Source: Planctomycetes bacterium syqfu (GTDB taxonomy: Bacteria > Planctomycetota > Phycisphaerae > Phycisphaerales > Phycisphaeraceae). Taken from it: a DNA stretch of 64,000 bases. Location of the stretch: assembly GCA_020974905.1 (NCBI GenBank), contig CP087563.1:5270001-5334000 (forward strand). Reading direction: 5' to 3'. The notes beneath the pieces were generated by a model. The model searched no databases. It was not told where the DNA came from and saw nothing but the letters and a program-made list of their open reading frames with translations. Both the position numbers and the translations under genes were made by a program. Below are positions 31,062 to 42,004 of this stretch, in pieces. Positions within the stretch are counted from its first letter, which is position 1; every line of letters begins with the position of its first letter.

Positions 31062-31529
31062 ATGCCATCTGTTTTGTTTGTTTGTCTGGGAAATATCTGT
31101 CGGAGTCCAGCTGCTGAGGGGGTGATGCTGGATGTGGTTGAAAAGGCCGGGTTATCGGACACGGTCAAGGTGGACTCGGCTGGGACGGGGGGCTGGCATG
31201 AAGGCGAGTTGCCTGATTCACGGATGCGTGCTGCGGCCAAGTCGCGCGGTTATGCGTTGACCAGTCGGGCGCGTCAGGTGCAGTCCAGTGATTTGAATCA
31301 GTTTGATTTGATCGTGCCGATGGACCAGAGCAATCTGGAGAATCTGCGTCGGATGTCGGGGGGCAAGGGGTCTCAGCATGTGAAGTTGCTCGGTGCGTTT
31401 CTCGATGCTGCGGACCCACCGGACGTGCCTGATCCATATTATGGTGGTCAGTCTGGTTTTGACCATGTGCTGGACATGCTTGAAGAAGCTTGCCCGAAGA
31501 TTTTGGCGATGTTGATGGAGAAGAAATGA
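31062..31529 (+). CDS. Low-molecular-weight protein-tyrosine-phosphatase family
   Basis: 155 residues. The phosphate-binding loop CLGNICRS (Cys8, Arg14; CX5R) is at the N-terminus and the general-acid motif DVPDPYYGG near residue 120. Its stop codon overlaps the start of the kinase gene in ATGA, so the two are translationally coupled. In other bacteria, LMW-PTPs beside fructosamine-kinase homologues remove the 5-phosphate from ribulosamine-5-phosphates on protein. That role is likely here by context. A tyrosine phosphatase role remains possible. Confidence 0.9.
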   Translation: MPSVLFVCLGNICRSPAAEGVMLDVVEKAGLSDTVKVDSAGTGGWHEGELPDSRMRAAAKSRGYALTSRARQVQSSDLNQFDLIVPMDQSNLENLRRMSGGKGSQHVKLLGAFLDAADPPDVPDPYYGGQSGFDHVLDMLEEACPKILAMLMEKK

Positions 31530-32404
31530 CGCCGGAGGTCCAACGCGTTATCGAATTCTCGATGGGGGATGAAGCCAAAGTCACCAAGTCTTACGCGGTG
31601 GGTGGCGGTTGCATCAATCAGGCATGGCGTGTCTGTTTGGATGACGGGCGTCAGGTTTTCGTCAAAGCACCATCGCGACGTGTGCAGCCGGATTATTTCC
31701 AGTTGGAGGCGGATGGCTTGGAAGCATTGCGTGAACCGCAGTGCATTGGTGTGCCCAAGGTGTTGGCGGTGAAGAACACGCCATCGGGAACACCGCTTTT
31801 GATCCTTGAATACATTGTCACCGGCAATCAACCAGCTGACTATCAGGCCAAGTTGGGGACCGGTTTAGCCAAGCTTCATCGCAACACCACGCAATACCGG
31901 TTCGGCTGGCCGGATGACAATCTGCTGGGCTCATCCATACAGCCCAATGGTTGGTTCAATGATTGGGTGGACTTTGTCCGCAAGCGTCGCCTGGGGTACC
32001 AGTTTGATCTGGCGCGGCGGAACGGCCATGGTGACAGTCAATTCACCCAGACCGCCCAAAAACTCATGAGCCAACTCGACACCATTCTGGATAGTGACGA
32101 ACCGGCCTGCCTGCTCCACGGGGATTTGTGGGGGGGCAATGTCATGTGCGACCAAAACGGTGAGCCGGTGCTGATTGATCCGGCAGTCTATTACGGGCAA
32201 CGTGAAGCGGACCTGGCGATGACGCATCTGTTCGGCGGATTCACGGATGACTTTTACCAGGCCTATGAAAAGGTCTGGCCTCTGCCCGAGGGAACCATGC
32301 GACGGCAGAAGGTGTTCATGCTCTACCATCTACTCAATCACCTGAATCTGTTCGGACGTGGCTATTACGGTCAGTGCATTTCACTGATGCAGGAATTGAT
32401 TTAG
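31526..32404 (+). CDS. Fructosamine/ribulosamine 3-kinase family protein
   Basis: 292 residues from the ATG that overlaps the phosphatase stop. The aminoglycoside-phosphotransferase-like fold has GGGCINQAW (nucleotide loop), VFVKAP, LHRNTTQYRFGW, the catalytic LLHGDLWGGNVM and LIDPAVYYGQREADLAM. Bacterial members phosphorylate ribulosamine or erythrulosamine adducts on lysine side chains at carbon 3, which makes the adduct fall off and repairs glycated protein. The coupled phosphatase gene supports this role. Confidence 0.9.
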   Translation: MTPEVQRVIEFSMGDEAKVTKSYAVGGGCINQAWRVCLDDGRQVFVKAPSRRVQPDYFQLEADGLEALREPQCIGVPKVLAVKNTPSGTPLLILEYIVTGNQPADYQAKLGTGLAKLHRNTTQYRFGWPDDNLLGSSIQPNGWFNDWVDFVRKRRLGYQFDLARRNGHGDSQFTQTAQKLMSQLDTILDSDEPACLLHGDLWGGNVMCDQNGEPVLIDPAVYYGQREADLAMTHLFGGFTDDFYQAYEKVWPLPEGTMRRQKVFMLYHLLNHLNLFGRGYYGQCISLMQELI

Positions 32405-32770: not shown

Positions 32771-32787
32771 TTGGCACAGTTGTTGCA
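32771..32787 (+). promoter_or_regulatory. Sigma-54 promoter of the nrt genes
   Basis: TTGGCAC (32771-32777), five bases, TTGCA (32783-32787). GG and GC are 12 bases apart, as required for -24/-12 elements, and all key consensus bases are present. Transcription should begin near 32797, at the start of the folded leader. It implies control by an NtrC-type activator. Confidence 0.8.
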
Positions 32788-32796
32788 ACTAGAGGG

Positions 32797-33010
32797 GCGT
32801 AAACGACAACGCAATAGAGTAAAGCTGAAAGTGACAAGGGGTCCTAAGCTCAGCTTGAAAAAATGCGAAGTCGCTTACCCTCGGCAACGGCAAAAAGCAG
32901 TTCGCCAGCCGCCGAGTTTTAAATTGTTACCGTGCGAGCCGAATCGGCGTAGATCGGCTGTGGACAAAGGCGTCCAATCCCATTCACGTGGGGTTGGGCG
33001 TTTTTTTTTT
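32797..33010 (+). promoter_or_regulatory. Folded nrt leader, candidate ANTAR antitermination element
   Basis: The leader holds a 5'-terminal stem GCGT/ACGC (32797-32812), a 7-bp stem AAGCTGA/TCAGCTT (32822-32856), and TGGAC-AAAGGC-GTCCA (32961-32976). The last is a 5-bp stem with a six-base loop having A at position 1 and G at position 4, the loop rule of ANTAR targets. Its 3' strand is also the 5' strand of the terminator at 32971-33010, so the two cannot form together. An ANTAR protein (NasT) is encoded at the end of this gene cluster. The first of the two hexaloop stems expected of the motif is not clear. Confidence 0.6.
32971..33010 (+). terminator. Intrinsic terminator in the nrt leader
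   Basis: CGTCCAATCCCA, loop TTCACG, TGGGGTTGGGCG (12 bp, two G-T pairs), then ten T. It lies between the sigma-54 promoter and nrtA, 100 bases before the start codon, so it must be bypassed for expression. Confidence 0.9.
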
Positions 33011-33109
33011 GCACTTTTCGCATTCGACACACCAACATCAACAGGCAACACCCTCAACTGCCTGATGCAAACAAAACATTGAATCCCAACTGATATTGGA
33101 GTACGCATC

Positions 33110-34534
<1,425 letters not shown>

Positions 34535-34667: not shown

Positions 34668-34773
34668 CTCCTCAAAACGCGCAACAACCAAACAACATTC
34701 AACAAATACAAAATCCCTCGCAAACAACGTCCGTCGCAAAATTCGTTTCCCGTTTACCTCAGTGAGTCGCATC

Positions 34774-36333
34774 ATGAAGTACAAAATTCTCAAAGCCCTG
34801 GACATTGCCGGCCTCAAGGTCCTCGACCCGGTCGTCCGACTGGCTTACCGTGAAGAGCCTCGCGAACAGGTTCGCAAGATCATCCTCTTCATTGCCATCC
34901 CCATCATCACCTTCTGTGCCTTCCTCGTCGCCTGGGCTTACATCGCCCCGCGTCACACCACCAAGAGTGGCGAAGTGCCTACGCCTTCGGTCGTCTGGGA
35001 TTCTGCCAAGAACATCTGGGTGTTCCATCAACGTGAGAACATCAAGGAAGAAGACTTCCGTGTTGAAGGTGAAGAACGCGAAAAGCGCATCGCCGAAGTC
35101 ACGGCACTGCTTGAAAAACTCAAACCTGAGTTGGAAAAAGCAGACGAGCAGCTCAACAAGGCACAGGAACAAGCCAAGGCTCAAACGCAGCAAGCCGTCG
35201 CCCCGTTGATGGCTGTGTTCGAAAAGACCAAAGAGCAATTCAAGCAGGCTGAGTCGGATCGCAAGAAAGAACTCAATGAGCTTGCTAAAACCATCAAGGA
35301 TGGCGACACCGCCGCCCGTGCCGAGTATCTGAAAAAGGTCGATGCACACATCAAACAAAGCGATGTCGAAACCGAGCAGCTTCAGGTGATCAAGTCCAGG
35401 ATTGATGTCGTCATGAACCCAAAGCATGAAGGACTGATTGCTGCCCGCACCGCCAAGAACCGCGTTGCTGAACAGGTTCAGTTTTTAAGTAAGCGTCTTG
35501 AAAACCTCGGCGATAACAACCAACAGCAGAAGGTGCTCGCTGCCAAGCAAGCTTTGGAAGAGAAGAAAGAGAAGTTCAGTGAAGCATCAGGTCGTGCTTT
35601 GTACTTCGGAGCGATGAACATTCACCGTGCTGAAGATCGTCTGGGACGCATTGAAACATCGACCTATGCCAAGCCTTGGACGTTCCCTGCACAGATCGTC
35701 CGGTCATTGGGTTGTGTGTTCCTGGGGTTTGTGATCGCAACAATCATCGCGGTACCCATCGGTATTCTCTGCGGACTTTCGCCGGTGTTTATGGCAGCGA
35801 TGACGCCGTTGATCTCACTGTTTAAACCCGTGTCCCCAATCGTGTGGCTTCCCATTGTGTTCATCATTGTCGGTGGTTTTATCGATGATCCTGAACAGGC
35901 TCCCGTGCATCCGGCGTTTTTATCATCAGCCATCACCGTTGCACTTTGCTCACTGTGGCCGACGTTGGTGAATACGGCTTTTGGTGTTGCAGCCATTGAC
36001 AAGGATCATCTCAACGTTGCCCGTGTGCTGCGTCTGGGATTCTGGAATCGCTTGTTTAAAATCGTCATCCCCTCAGCCTTGCCGCTGATTTTTGCAGGTC
36101 TTCGCATCAGCCTGGGGGTTGGCTGGATGGTGCTCATCGCTGCCGAATTGCTTTCAAGTTCTGAAGGCATTGGCAAGTTTGTCTGGGACATGTTTAACAA
36201 CGGTTCGTCTCAGACCTTCGCCCAGATGTTCGTCGTCGTCTTCGTCGTCGGTATCGTCGGCCTGATGCTCGATCGCACGATGATCGTCTTCCAACGCCTC
36301 GTCAGTTTCGACGGCGCCCCGACAGCGATTTAA
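34774..36333 (+). CDS. nrtB: Nitrate-type ABC transporter permease with a large coiled-coil insert
   Basis: 519 residues from ATG 34774 (a GTG at 34762 is an alternative). Family members are about 270-290 residues. Helix 1 (about 36-58) is normal and is followed by [11 protein letters not shown], but then about 200 residues (about 90-298) rich in Glu, Lys, Gln and Ala with few helix breakers are inserted. They show long heptad-like runs ([20 protein letters not shown]). The permease core resumes at 300 with further helices, [12 protein letters not shown] and the EAA-type loop [17 protein letters not shown]. Positive residues before helix 1 place the insert on the periplasmic side. It might contact NrtA, the cell wall or the porin encoded downstream; this is inference. 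Confidence 0.85.
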
Positions 36334-36394: not shown

Positions 36395-37243
36395 ATGTCT
36401 TTCCTCGAAATGAACAATGTGTGCATCGGCTACGGGCCTTCCAATGCTCGTACTGAAGTGCTCGAAAATGTGAACCTGAGTGTGGAAGAAAATGAGTTCG
36501 TTGCCATCATCGGCTTTTCGGGCTCGGGCAAGAGTACGCTCATCTCCCTGCTTGCAGGTCTGGAAAAACCTGACAGTGGTTTCGTCCGCATGAAGGGTAG
36601 GACCATTGATCAACCCGGCCCGGATCGTGGCGTGATGTTTCAGAATTACTCACTGCTTCCCTGGCTGAGCGTGTATCAAAACATTGAACTTGCCGTCAAG
36701 CAGGTGTTCCCCGACATGAAGAAGGGCGAACGTGTTGAATACATTCAGCATTACATCGACATGGTTTCACTAACCAGCGCTGAATGGAAAAAGCCCCACG
36801 AACTCTCCGGCGGCATGCGTCAGCGTTTGTCACTTGCACGCACGCTTGCTATGAAACCGGAAGTGTTACTTCTTGATGAGCCGCTCTCTGCTTTGGATGC
36901 GTTGACGCGTTCGGTGTTGCAGGATGAGATCATTCGCATCTGGGAAGAGGATCGCCGCACCGTGGTGATGATTACCAACGATGTCGACGAAGCCACCATC
37001 ATGGCAGACCGCATCATCCCACTGACTCCCGGTCCCAAAGCGACGTTGGCTCAGGACTTCAAAGTCGAGCTGCCCCGCCCGCGTGATCGCACGACGTTGA
37101 ACTTTAACCCTGATTTCAAGGCACTTCGTAACCGCGTGACCAAGTTCATGATCTCGGTCAACGAGGAAGCCAAGCTGCTTCGCACACAGCGCAATCTCAA
37201 ATGCCCCGACATCCAACCCATCTCACTGGCAAGAGTTGGGTGA
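36395..37243 (+). CDS. nrtC: Nitrate-type ABC transporter ATPase with altered H-loop
   Basis: 282 residues. Walker [11 protein letters not shown]-loop [11 protein letters not shown], signature [14 protein letters not shown] and Walker [14 protein letters not shown] are intact. The H-loop reads ITNDVDEA, where nearly all ABC ATPases have THD, so the switch His is replaced by Asn. The partner ATPase at 37555 keeps THD. The protein lacks the NrtA-like C-terminal domain found on cyanobacterial NrtC. It presumably pairs with that partner under NrtB. The symbol follows gene order. Confidence 0.85.
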
Positions 37244-37554: not shown

Positions 37555-38484
37555 ATGAGTAACAACCTTCAAGACAGATATGTTGAAATCGTCAATCTCG
37601 TCAAAGCCTATCCCAATCCGTTTGGCGAAGACATTCGCGTGGTCGATGGCTTTGATCTTCGCATCAAGCAAGGTGAAATGATCGGCATTCTCGGTCACTC
37701 AGGTTGTGGCAAGTCCACGGTCCTGACCATGATTGCAGGACTCAACGACATCACCGCGGGAAACGTGGTTGTCGCAGGCAAGGAAATCGACGGTGCTGGC
37801 CCGGATCGTAGCGTGGTGTTTCAATCCCCATGCTTGTTCCCATGGATGACCGCGCTGGGCAATGTCATGCTCGGCGTGAAACGTGTTTACCCGCATGCAA
37901 CCAGGAAAGAACGTCGTGAGTTGGCGGAGTTCTATCTCAACCAGGTTGGCTTGATCGACGCGATGCACAAGTACCCGCGCGAAATGTCCGGCGGGATGCA
38001 GCAACGTGTGGGGATCGCTCGAGCCATTGCACTTAAACCCAAGATGCTTTTGCTTGACGAACCGTTCGGTCGATTGGATTCATTAACCCGCATGGAACTC
38101 CAGGATGTGATTCTGGATATTCTCAATGAAAACCAGGTGACCACGTTATTGGTCACGCATGACGTGGACGAAGCGATTTACATGTGTGACCGCATCGTCA
38201 CCATGACCAATGGGCCGCATGCACGGGTTGGGCGGATTAATGAAATGCCCTTTGAGCGCCCTCGTATCCGTCAGGAGGTATTGGATCATCCGGAATACTA
38301 CAATATCCGTGGCAGCTTGATTCAGTATCTCCAAGACCTCGAACACGAAAAGGAAAATCGTGGCAAGGCCAGTGAGACAACAGAAGACGAACCTGCCAGC
38401 GAAGACTCGGAAGCGGAACTCGAAGAAGCCCTGGCAACACAGAAGCCCAAAACTGAGAAGTCCGAGTTGGTTTTTATGTTGTGA
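37555..38484 (+). CDS. nrtD: Nitrate-type ABC transporter ATPase
   Basis: 309 residues from ATG 37555, with AGGAGAAG upstream. Walker [10 protein letters not shown], signature [15 protein letters not shown], Walker [13 protein letters not shown] and H-loop LVTHDVDEA are all intact, so this subunit has complete catalytic motifs. The last 50 residues are acidic and rich in Glu ([12 protein letters not shown]), which is unusual for the family. It is followed after 28 bases by the ANTAR gene. Confidence 0.9.
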
Positions 38485-38512
38485 TTGGTGAAAGCCACAA
38501 AGGTATTTCAAA

Positions 38513-39097
38513 TTGGCAGAAGCATTGAAAATCATGGTGGTCGATGAGGACGCAGCACGCGGTCGCGCTCTGGCTAACGTTCTGAACGACAGCGGCTACA
38601 AGGTCGTGGGGTTGGTCCTCACGGGTGAGTACCTGCCTTCGGTGATGGCGGACGCCAAGCCGGATGTGGTGTTGATCGATATCAGTTCGCCCAGCCGTGA
38701 TACGTTGGAAATGGTTTCGTCGATCCATCGGGATCATAAACGTCCGGTGGTGATGTTTGCCAGTGATGATGATGAACAGACGGTTCAGGCAGCAGTGGAA
38801 GCAGGGGTCAGTGCGTATGTCGCGGACGGGCTGAGTCTTGCCAAGTTCAAGCCTATTTTTCAGGTTGCCATTGCTCATTTTCAGAAGCACCAATCGTTGG
38901 AACGTGAGTTATCAACCGCCAAGAGTTCGCTTGATGAGCGGAAGTTCATTGACCGTGCCAAAGGCTTGTTGATGGAAAAACGCAAGTGTTCTGAGAGCGA
39001 AGCGTTTTCATTGCTGCGGAAGATGGCAATGGACAGAAAGCAACGGATCGGGCAGGTCGCCCAGGAGTTGGTTGAGTTGCTGCAAATCGTCAATTGA
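38513..39097 (+). CDS. nasT: ANTAR-domain antitermination regulator, NasT-like
   Basis: 194 residues from a TTG at 38513 (AAAGG 9 bases upstream), the only start that keeps the first strand of the domain. The receiver domain has the acidic pair DED (11-13) and the phosphoacceptor Asp56 in DVVLIDIS. A short coiled coil leads to the C-terminal ANTAR helices (ERKFIDRAKGLLMEKR ... IGQVAQELVELL). NasT binds leader RNA and prevents termination; NasS holds it inactive until nitrate or nitrite is present. The likely target is the leader at 32797-33010. Confidence 0.92.
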   Translation: MAEALKIMVVDEDAARGRALANVLNDSGYKVVGLVLTGEYLPSVMADAKPDVVLIDISSPSRDTLEMVSSIHRDHKRPVVMFASDDDEQTVQAAVEAGVSAYVADGLSLAKFKPIFQVAIAHFQKHQSLERELSTAKSSLDERKFIDRAKGLLMEKRKCSESEAFSLLRKMAMDRKQRIGQVAQELVELLQIVN

Positions 39098-39191: not shown

Positions 39192-40457
39192 ATGATACGA
39201 ATTGAAAAACCCATATTGCGAATCGGCTTCGTGCCTTTGACCGACTGTGCGCCGTTGGTGGTTGCACAGGAGATGGGCTTCTTCACCGAAGAAGGGTTGA
39301 CGGTTGATCTGGTGCGTGAAGGCTCGTGGGCAGGGATTCGAGACAAGGTTGCTTACGGCGTGTTCGATGCTGCCCAGATGCTCGCACCGATGCCGATCGC
39401 GACCACGCTGGGTATTGCCGGTGTCCGCAAGCCGACGATCACCGCATTGAGTCTGGATTTAAATGGGAATGCGATCACGGTTTCCAACACATTGTTTGAG
39501 CAGATGAGTGAAGCGTTGCCCCAGATGGTTGAGGATCGCAAGCTTTCTGCCAAAGCATTGAAGAATGTGATTGATGACCGTAAAGCCAAAGGCAAGGACA
39601 AGCTGACGTTTGGGATTGTGTTCCCGACATCGATGCACAATTACGAACTGCGTTACTGGATGGCCTCTGCTGGGATCGACCCGGATCAAGATGTGAACCT
39701 GATCGTCGTGCCGCCGCCGCAGATGGTCAGCTTTCTGAAGGACAAACAACTTGATGGCTATTGCGTTGGCGAGCCCTGGAACACGGTGGCGACGTTAAGC
39801 AAAGTTGGCCGGACCGTGATAACCGGATATGAAATCTGGAACAACTCGCCGGAGAAGGTACTCGGGGTCAACAGTGACTGGGCGGATCGTCACCCCAACA
39901 CGCATTTTGCTTTGATCCGCGCGGTGCTTAAAGCATGCGATTGGATTGAGCAGCAGGAAGACTGCCAACCGGTGGTGGAGATGCTCGCCAGTGAGAAGTA
40001 CGTCGGCGCCTTGCCCGAGATCATCGGTTTGACGATGTGTGGCAAGTATCAGTTTGAGTTGGGCAAGCACCCCGAACTGATGCCGGACTTTAATGTGTTC
40101 GGCCGCTTTGCTGCGACGTTCCCCTGGCGGTCGCATGCGATCTGGTTTGTGACACAGATGAAACGTTGGGGGCAGGTTCCCGAAGACTGGGATGAACGGA
40201 TGATTGCTGAGGCAACGTATCGGCCGGAGATTTACCGGGCGGCGGCATCGGAGCTTGGCATCAACTTCCCGACACAGGATTACAAAGCTGAAGGTAAGCA
40301 TGATCAACCCTGGACGCTGTACAGCGACGACCGCGACGCACTGACAATGGGGTCAGATGTGTGGATGGACGGCCAGGTGTTTGACCCTGCCAAGCCTGCT
40401 GAATACCTGGCGCGTCTCCGCCAGGGCCGGGGTGGTGTGACTTCAGGCAAACTCTGA
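39192..40457 (+). CDS. nasS: Cytoplasmic nitrate sensor, NasS-like
   Basis: 421 residues from ATG 39192. It is closely related to NrtA at 33110: [47 protein letters not shown]. It has no signal peptide, so it stays in the cytoplasm, which separates NasS from the transport protein. It is expected to bind nitrate or nitrite and then release NasT. The order here is nasT then nasS, 94 bases apart, the reverse of the usual nasS-nasT. Confidence 0.88.
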   Translation: MIRIEKPILRIGFVPLTDCAPLVVAQEMGFFTEEGLTVDLVREGSWAGIRDKVAYGVFDAAQMLAPMPIATTLGIAGVRKPTITALSLDLNGNAITVSNTLFEQMSEALPQMVEDRKLSAKALKNVIDDRKAKGKDKLTFGIVFPTSMHNYELRYWMASAGIDPDQDVNLIVVPPPQMVSFLKDKQLDGYCVGEPWNTVATLSKVGRTVITGYEIWNNSPEKVLGVNSDWADRHPNTHFALIRAVLKACDWIEQQEDCQPVVEMLASEKYVGALPEIIGLTMCGKYQFELGKHPELMPDFNVFGRFAATFPWRSHAIWFVTQMKRWGQVPEDWDERMIAEATYRPEIYRAAASELGINFPTQDYKAEGKHDQPWTLYSDDRDALTMGSDVWMDGQVFDPAKPAEYLARLRQGRGGVTSGKL

Positions 40458-40648: not shown

Positions 40649-42004
40649 ATGGTTGGATCTAAATGGACATGGACCAAGGGATTGGCAATTGCCGGCACCA
40701 TTGCCGGTTCACTGCTGATGGGCTCACAGGTCAAGGCTCAGGAAGAAGCACCCGCTTCCGATGGGTTCTGGCTTAACCCCTTTAACCTGCCGGAAAACTT
40801 CGGCTGGATGAGTGATCCCAAGACACCGGCAGAGGGTATTGCCGACGCACTTTTCGGTGGCAAATTCTCGATGAATAATCGCCTTCGCTGGGAGCATGTC
40901 TCGCAGACCGGTCGTGACGAAACTTCGGCGATCACCAATCGCACACGCTTTGGTTACGCGACCAAGCCGCTCAACGGTGTGAGCGCGTTTGTCGAACTGG
41001 AAAACAACACGCCGTTTGACCGCAGTGACTACTCCGTGCCCCAGGCATCACAGGGGGCTTCGACCAAAGCCGTTGTGGCAGACCCCGAAGAAGTCGAACT
41101 CAACCAGGCTTACATCAAGTATGTCACCAAGTTCGATGATGTGAGCTTCAACGCCATCCTCGGCCGTCAGCGCATCATCATTGATGACGCCCGATTCATC
41201 GGCAACGTCGGTTGGCGTCAGATGGAACAGACCTACGATGCAGCCAACTTCTCCAGCGATCTGGGCATCAAGGGTTTTGATCTCCAGTACATCTACATCT
41301 GGAAGGTCAACCGCATCTTCACCGAAGAAGCGACTGTTGCGGGCGCAACACCGTTTGATTCCAGTTCGCATGTCATTCATGCCAGCTACCAGTTCTGTAA
41401 GGAGTTCAAGCTCATTGGCTTTGCTTACCTGCTTGATCTGGAAAATGACGGTGGCAACAACAACTCCAGCCAAACCTATGGCGTGACCGGACTCGGTGAT
41501 ATCAAGCTCGATGACACATGGGGTCTTGGCTACAAACTTACCTATGCTCATCAAAGCGATTATGCTGACAGCACGCTTGACTATGAAGCAGACTTCTTTG
41601 CCATCGATGTGAAACTGTCGGTCAAGGATCTTGGCTTTGGTGGTGTGGGCTTCCAACTGCTCGGTTCAGATGGTGGCGCAGCTGCCTTCCAATTCCCGTT
41701 GGGTACCAATCATGCCTATCAGGGTTGGGCGGACGTTTTCCTGACCACGCCTGCCAGTGGTGTTGAAGATTTCTACATCTATGCAGGCACCAAGTTGCCC
41801 TTCGATATCAATGCCAAGGTCTTCTATCATGACTACTCTGCCAATAAGGGCGGTGGTGATCTGGGGACTGAAATCGACTTTGTGCTTAGCAAGAAGATCA
41901 ACAAGAACTGGTCCGTGCTGACCAAGTTTGCCGACTACAACGGCGAAGACTCGGGCAATGCCGACCGCACCAAGTTCTGGCTTGAGACCACGTTTACGTT
42001 TTGA
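40649..42004 (+). CDS. Outer-membrane porin, alginate-export (AlgE) type
   Basis: 451 residues, with AAGGAA 7 bases before the ATG. A signal peptide ends VKAQ (about residue 31). The rest is built of alternating beta strands with aromatic girdles and has ILGRQRIIIDDARFIGNVGWRQ-like wording typical of the alginate_exp porin family, and ends in Phe (TFTF), the usual outer-membrane assembly signal. Such porins pass anions and small sugars. Its place directly after nrt/nas suggests nitrate entry through the outer membrane, not alginate export. Confidence 0.85.
   Translation: MVGSKWTWTKGLAIAGTIAGSLLMGSQVKAQEEAPASDGFWLNPFNLPENFGWMSDPKTPAEGIADALFGGKFSMNNRLRWEHVSQTGRDETSAITNRTRFGYATKPLNGVSAFVELENNTPFDRSDYSVPQASQGASTKAVVADPEEVELNQAYIKYVTKFDDVSFNAILGRQRIIIDDARFIGNVGWRQMEQTYDAANFSSDLGIKGFDLQYIYIWKVNRIFTEEATVAGATPFDSSSHVIHASYQFCKEFKLIGFAYLLDLENDGGNNNSSQTYGVTGLGDIKLDDTWGLGYKLTYAHQSDYADSTLDYEADFFAIDVKLSVKDLGFGGVGFQLLGSDGGAAAFQFPLGTNHAYQGWADVFLTTPASGVEDFYIYAGTKLPFDINAKVFYHDYSANKGGGDLGTEIDFVLSKKINKNWSVLTKFADYNGEDSGNADRTKFWLETTFTF

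Follow-up and report, generated by a model that had tools for sequence, protein, structure and literature searches.

Probable NasS/NasT-controlled attenuation behind a sigma-54-type promoter in the nitrate importer leader of a planctomycete and its order

ANTAR-binding RNAs are expected to carry two hexaloop hairpins (PMC3369931, PMC7496416), and the first survey of such targets took in Actinobacteria, Bacteroidetes, Firmicutes and Proteobacteria, according to a commentary (PMC3369936). In Pseudomonas, the nirBD leader NalA is transcribed from a sigma-54/NtrC promoter, and its read-through depends on NasT (PMC12830290, PMC3973561, citing Romeo 2012). The planctomycete leader described here is similar to NalA in its putative sigma-54 promoter, terminator leader and NasS/NasT pair. 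It differs in that 1) NalA drives nirBD, whereas the planctomycete leader would drive an ABC nitrate importer, 2) NtrC is the activator in Pseudomonas, whereas all of the 8 activators scanned in the planctomycete scored below the NtrC cut-off, and 3) the P1 (first hairpin) loop of NalA is unlike that of the planctomycete nrtA leader. The nasF leader of Klebsiella oxytoca also joins Ntr control to two-hairpin antitermination in which A and G occupy the first and fourth loop positions (A1/G4) (PMC3369936, PMC7496416, PMC5424462), but there the sensor is the one-component NIT-ANTAR protein NasR instead of a NasS/NasT pair. In Paracoccus denitrificans, where the NasS/NasT step has been established (PMC3795266), nasTS-nasABGHC has NasT-dependent leader hairpins and nitrate dissociates the NasS/NasT complex (PMC3795266, PMC5424462); its nasTS genes precede the structural genes and have their own NtrC-controlled promoter, whereas those of the planctomycete lie downstream, probably inside the attenuated operon. 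The Enterococcus EutV/EutW leaders are likewise two-hairpin RNAs overlapping a terminator (PMC3369931), but they serve histidine-kinase signalling and ethanolamine genes.

The genome of Planctomycetes bacterium syqfu is a single 7.38-Mb contig (GenBank:CP087563.1), of which a 64-kb stretch (positions 5,270,001 to 5,334,000), hereafter the window, was analysed; coordinates are those of the window unless otherwise indicated. The leader elements lie within the 705 bases that separate nrtA from a fructosamine-kinase-like gene (31490-32404), and the genes that follow are listed in Table 1. It was noticed that in the nrtB-like permease the permease domain is preceded by about 300 additional N-terminal residues, rich in charged ones. 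NasT is the only ANTAR-domain protein in the genome, and the pair seen here, a receiver-ANTAR protein beside an NrtA-like sensor, was found in relatives as well; the first-pass annotation had placed NasT and NasS in one cluster, and indeed nasT and then nasS lie downstream of the nrt genes. Since nasT starts 28 nt after the second ATPase gene (38484 to 38513) on the same strand, nasTS are probably read through their own attenuator, and this position inside the attenuated operon would probably give positive feedback. At another locus, L029, nasTS was divergent from nrtA.

Table 1. Coordinates of the nrt cluster, its leader elements and the second leader
Feature	Position	Strand	Basis or remark
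-24/-12 (sigma-54) promoter element, putative, TGGCACAGTTGTTGCA	32772..32787	+	Conservation in the order; RpoN in genome
Untranslated leader of nrt operon	32797..33109	+	Start predicted about 11 nt past the -12 GC, from promoter position
Candidate ANTAR hairpin P1	32937..32959	+	Folding; hairpin enrichment upstream of P2
ANTAR hairpin P2 (putative antiterminator), UGGAC-AAAGGC-GUCCA, loop A1 and G4	32961..32976	+	Sequence, conservation, covariation, shuffles
Intrinsic terminator	32966..33010	+	5' arm 32966-32983, 3' arm 32988-33005, T tract 33001-33010
nrtA, nitrate-binding protein (NMT1_2 family)	33110..34534	+	GTG start; 71-80% identical to orthologues in the order
nrtB-like permease, long N-terminal extension	34762..36333	+	
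Nitrate ABC transporter ATPase (nrtC/D type)	36395..37243	+	TIGR01184 above cut-off
Second nitrate ABC transporter ATPase	37555..38484	+	TIGR01184 above cut-off
nasT, receiver and ANTAR RNA-binding antiterminator	38513..39097	+	PF03861, PF00072
nasS, NrtA-like nitrate sensor	39192..40457	+	NMT1_2; presumed start codon (scans used 39189)
Outer-membrane porin-like protein (Alginate_exp)	40649..42004	+	Adjoins nasS in two relatives too
Second -24/-12 and ANTAR-hairpin leader, before nasA-nirA	C1:4406238-4406337 (= L095:4239-4338)		

Direct reading of the sequence upstream of nrtA revealed TGGCACAgttgTTGCA at 32772-32787, a -24/-12 element that matches 10 of the 11 consensus positions and in which the spacing of the -24 GG and -12 GC is correct for a sigma-54-dependent promoter. 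The window contained 4 such sites with at most one mismatch versus 2.3 expected; the match at nrtA, taken singly, is within chance. It gains credibility from where it lies and from being conserved in relatives. Searching 400 genomes of the same order for NrtA gave 16 that have it, with leaders readable in 15, and all 15 nrtA leaders had a -24/-12 site at the equivalent place, matching 9-11 of the 11 consensus positions. The distance from this site to P2 (the second hairpin) was 70-190 nt in these 15 leaders and in the nasA-type leaders treated below; several sites of the whole set matched at 11/11. RpoN (sigma-54) is encoded in a single copy in the genome, and a scan for sigma-70-type promoters gave no forward-strand site. 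Upstream of the nrtA-type promoters, a search for a shared activator site yielded no common dyad or clear NtrC-like site. A NifA-like protein scored above the NifA cut-off, but nothing ties it to the nrtA promoter, and it was set aside as a candidate activator. With transcription expected to start near 32797 and to end at 33010, the terminated leader RNA would be about 213 nt long, close to the 210 bases estimated previously.

The terminator closing this leader, which had been called strong, has a stem of 18 pairs (32966-33005) running into ten T's, with a folding energy of -25.7 kcal/mol (z -6.2). The annotated 5-bp stem with the hexaloop AAAGGC (A1, G4), closed by a C-G pair, was present at 32961-32976. 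Because the 5' arm of the terminator takes in both the entire P2 hexaloop and the P2 stem's 3' arm, P2 and the terminator are mutually exclusive, in agreement with the earlier claim. When folded alone, the RNA from 32930 to 32977 formed two adjacent hairpins, and the full nrtA leader folded into the terminator form. The sequence GGACAAAGGCGTCC has one perfect occurrence in the genome and 4 sites with one mismatch, which on inspection had the appearance of coding sequence; these near matches of the hexaloop, coding-like and without a terminator, were rejected. Among shuffled leaders, about 1% contained a hexaloop of the P2 type, and that of nrtA exceeds chance.

At the gathering score, Rfam reported only rRNA genes in the window, and at relaxed score the sole informative match was a weak one to P11 (RF00625) at 32913-33002, with P1, P2 and the terminator in register. 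The first-pass annotation had proposed a covariance search of the leader with the ANTAR RNA model; the match to P11 aligned P1 and P2 but did not support membership of that family, the score being 14 bits against a gathering threshold of 70 bits. The P11 consensus contains an identical UGGACAAAGGCGUCC, and the family looks like a NasT leader whose consensus carries the ANTAR hexaloop. We take NalA to be P11, an identity that the shared UGGACAAAGGCGUCC makes probable.

Within the order, the P2 hairpin was located between the -24/-12 site and nrtA in 15 of the 15 readable leaders, three of which (L072, L073 and L078) had variant loops or stems and were identified by inspection. Loss of the hexaloop stem in relatives, named at first pass as evidence that would tell against its reading, was thus not the case. 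The P2 loops found were AAAGGC, AACGGC, AAAGAC, AACGAA and AATGGC, with AACGTG in the nasA-type leader of L178; A1, A2 and G4 were invariant across the nrtA and nasA-type leaders, and positions 3, 5 and 6 were free. The stems varied in step (GGAC/GTCC, GGTC/GACC in L072, GAGAC/GTCTC in L082). In a covariation test on 16 sequences, in which nrtA-type and nasA-type leaders were pooled, 4 of the 6 P2 pairs had changed on both sides and the covariation score was above all of the 500 shuffles. In register, 84% of the P2 cells were paired, versus at most 46% with the arms slid. The two outermost pairs were loose, with about half of the cells paired, and the inner four were invariant or compensated; it is on these inner four that the covariation claim rests. 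The compensatory changes for which alignment of nrtA leaders had been suggested are therefore present, with A1/G4 of the loop retained. Clear U-rich terminators were seen in part of the order leaders only, and no obvious one was found in the nasA-type leaders, L072 and L073. NasT was present in all 16 order genomes having NrtA.

The first hairpin is less regular. The P1 of nrtA can be drawn either as AGCCGA-ATCGGCGTAGA-TCGGCT, whose 11-nt loop opens with A-U-C-G, or as a bulged stem, AGCCG(A)ATC-GGCGTA-GATCGGCT, with the hexaloop GGCGUA having G1 and G4. Among 16 leaders examined, a hairpin of at least 5.5 weighted pairs occurred close upstream of P2 in 9 versus 1.5 expected, and in 5 of these 9 the loop had A and G at positions 1 and 4, two of the five being closely related nasA leaders. 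The A1/G4 signature was clear in L074, L078 and the own-genome nasA leader, which has a 7-nt loop. In several of the 16 leaders, about half of the distinct ones, P1 was not recognisable. These results indicate that P1 is real as a class, yet not strict, and that the P1 of nrtA is a real hairpin with a loop departing from the strict A1/G4 hexaloop rule; the doubt expressed at first pass over this stem was justified.

A second leader with the same elements, absent from the first-pass annotation, was found before an unlinked operon in the same genome that encodes a Fe-S/membrane protein, a NasA-like reductase, NirA and a flavoprotein. It has a -24/-12 site, TGGCACGGACTTTGCA, at C1:4406239, a clear P1 with A1/G4 (TTGCCC-AACGCTC-GGGCAA) and a P2, GGAC-AACGAA-GTCC, at C1:4406324-4406337. 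No obvious U-rich terminator was seen in it, and with that exception it matches what the hypothesis predicts. In a genus relative, the nasA-type leader had diverged, the P2 loop being AACGTG, with A1, G4 and both stems kept. Genome G220 has an equivalent pair of leaders, one ahead of nrtA and the other ahead of a transporter-nasA-nirA operon.

For comparison, 80 named NrtA relatives in other genomes were inspected. One of them (L096) came from a genome of the Phycisphaerae and carried the same leader; in the remaining 79 NrtA loci, from Verrucomicrobiota, Bacteroidota, other Planctomycetota and a few more groups, both elements were never found together (0/79). A strict hexaloop was seen in 3 of the 79, two of which, L132 (Myxococcota) and L173 (Rhizobiaceae-group), have nasT near nrtA. 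Since this pattern accompanies the presence of NasT in every order genome with NrtA, the leader goes with NasT and not with NrtA as such. The exact pattern GGACAANGGCGTCC hit 110 of 392 phylum genomes, but its reversed control also hit many, so that the hits are mostly background and were not used.

Two of the loci inspected are of separate interest. At L132:3600-4001, nasT is followed by nrtA, and tandem hexaloops (TTCC-AAAGGC-GGAA and GGGC-AAAGGC-GCCC) with a strong terminator form a textbook ANTAR leader. Around the ANTAR proteins of more distant genomes (25-31% identity), no convincing hexaloop terminator leader was found in the stretches examined, except at L012:790-850 (minus strand), in another family of the phylum. 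There, an ANTAR response regulator gene and an adjacent ORF are followed by AGGC-AAAGGC-GCCT and then by a terminator immediately ahead of a gene for glutamine synthetase, which suggests a planctomycete glnA under ANTAR control of the EutV type.

On the elements described, their mutual exclusion, conservation and covariation, and their co-occurrence with NasT, the nrt leader very probably acts as a transcription attenuator that is governed by NasS/NasT and follows a sigma-54 promoter. The central proposal of the first-pass annotation, sigma-54 initiation combined with NasS/NasT antitermination, thus appears well supported by the comparative sequence data, to which the second target adds. By this model, sigma-54 RNA polymerase would start near 32797 once activated by an enhancer-binding protein, which probably signals nitrogen shortage. 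When nitrate is absent, NasS would hold NasT, the terminator (32966-33010) would form and transcription would end after about 213 nt, at 33001-33010. When nitrate or nitrite is present, NasS would release NasT, and the freed NasT would bind P2, plus the adjacent P1, preventing the hexaloop arm from pairing into the terminator, so that the polymerase could read into nrtABCD-nasTS. The unlinked nasA-nirA operon, with the same type of promoter and hairpin, would be the second part of the regulon.

That the attenuator is real and controlled by NasT, but served by a housekeeping promoter with the -24/-12 match being incidental, would agree with a single match within chance in the window and with the failure to find a conserved enhancer site upstream. 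We consider this very unlikely, as the -24/-12 site recurs in 15/15 order leaders and in the nasA-type leaders, several at 11/11, RpoN is encoded in the genome and the scan gave no forward-strand sigma-70-type site. Still less credible, to the point of being nearly dismissible, is that the hairpins are an ordinary, unregulated factor-independent terminator of the fructosamine-kinase-like gene: a terminator does exist and shares its strand with the upstream gene, but it lies about 560 nt beyond that gene, and the hexaloop, whose stem covaries, is conserved and accompanies nrtA and NasT.

Within antitermination itself, a variant of the preferred model has the NasT of this order reading P2 alone, with P1 dispensable or a spacer. 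About half of the distinct leaders lack a recognisable P1, only some of the others have A1/G4 in the P1 loop, and NasR is able to bind a single hairpin weakly (PMC7496416); the excess of hairpins close upstream of P2 (9/16 versus 1.5 expected) and the A1/G4 loops of L074, L078 and the own nasA leader argue against it, and we regard the variant as possible but doubtful. Similarly tentative, and in our view rather unlikely, is the wider idea that NasT of this order has relaxed the two-hexaloop rule, P2 being strict and P1 optional or with its loop enlarged or altered, an ANTAR code unlike that of Proteobacteria and Firmicutes, and that nasTS behind their own attenuator add a nitrate-triggered positive feedback.

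As for novelty, the first-pass annotation had expected both the planctomycete setting and the pairing of sigma-54 with the leader to be new. No description of ANTAR RNAs in Planctomycetota was found in the literature searched, with most subscription journals outside its reach, and the setting appears to be undescribed. The pairing is already present in Pseudomonas NalA (PMC12830290, PMC3973561) and, as Ntr plus NasR, in Klebsiella nasF (PMC5424462, PMC3369936). What appears to be new is therefore the Planctomycetota setting together with conservation through one order, the two-lock design itself being known. The finding would extend NasT antitermination under sigma-54 to Planctomycetota, as an order-wide regulon of two operons. 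The P2 hairpins of the order constitute a natural alignment for sharpening ANTAR target models, and the aberrant P1 hairpins make the two-hairpin rule testable.
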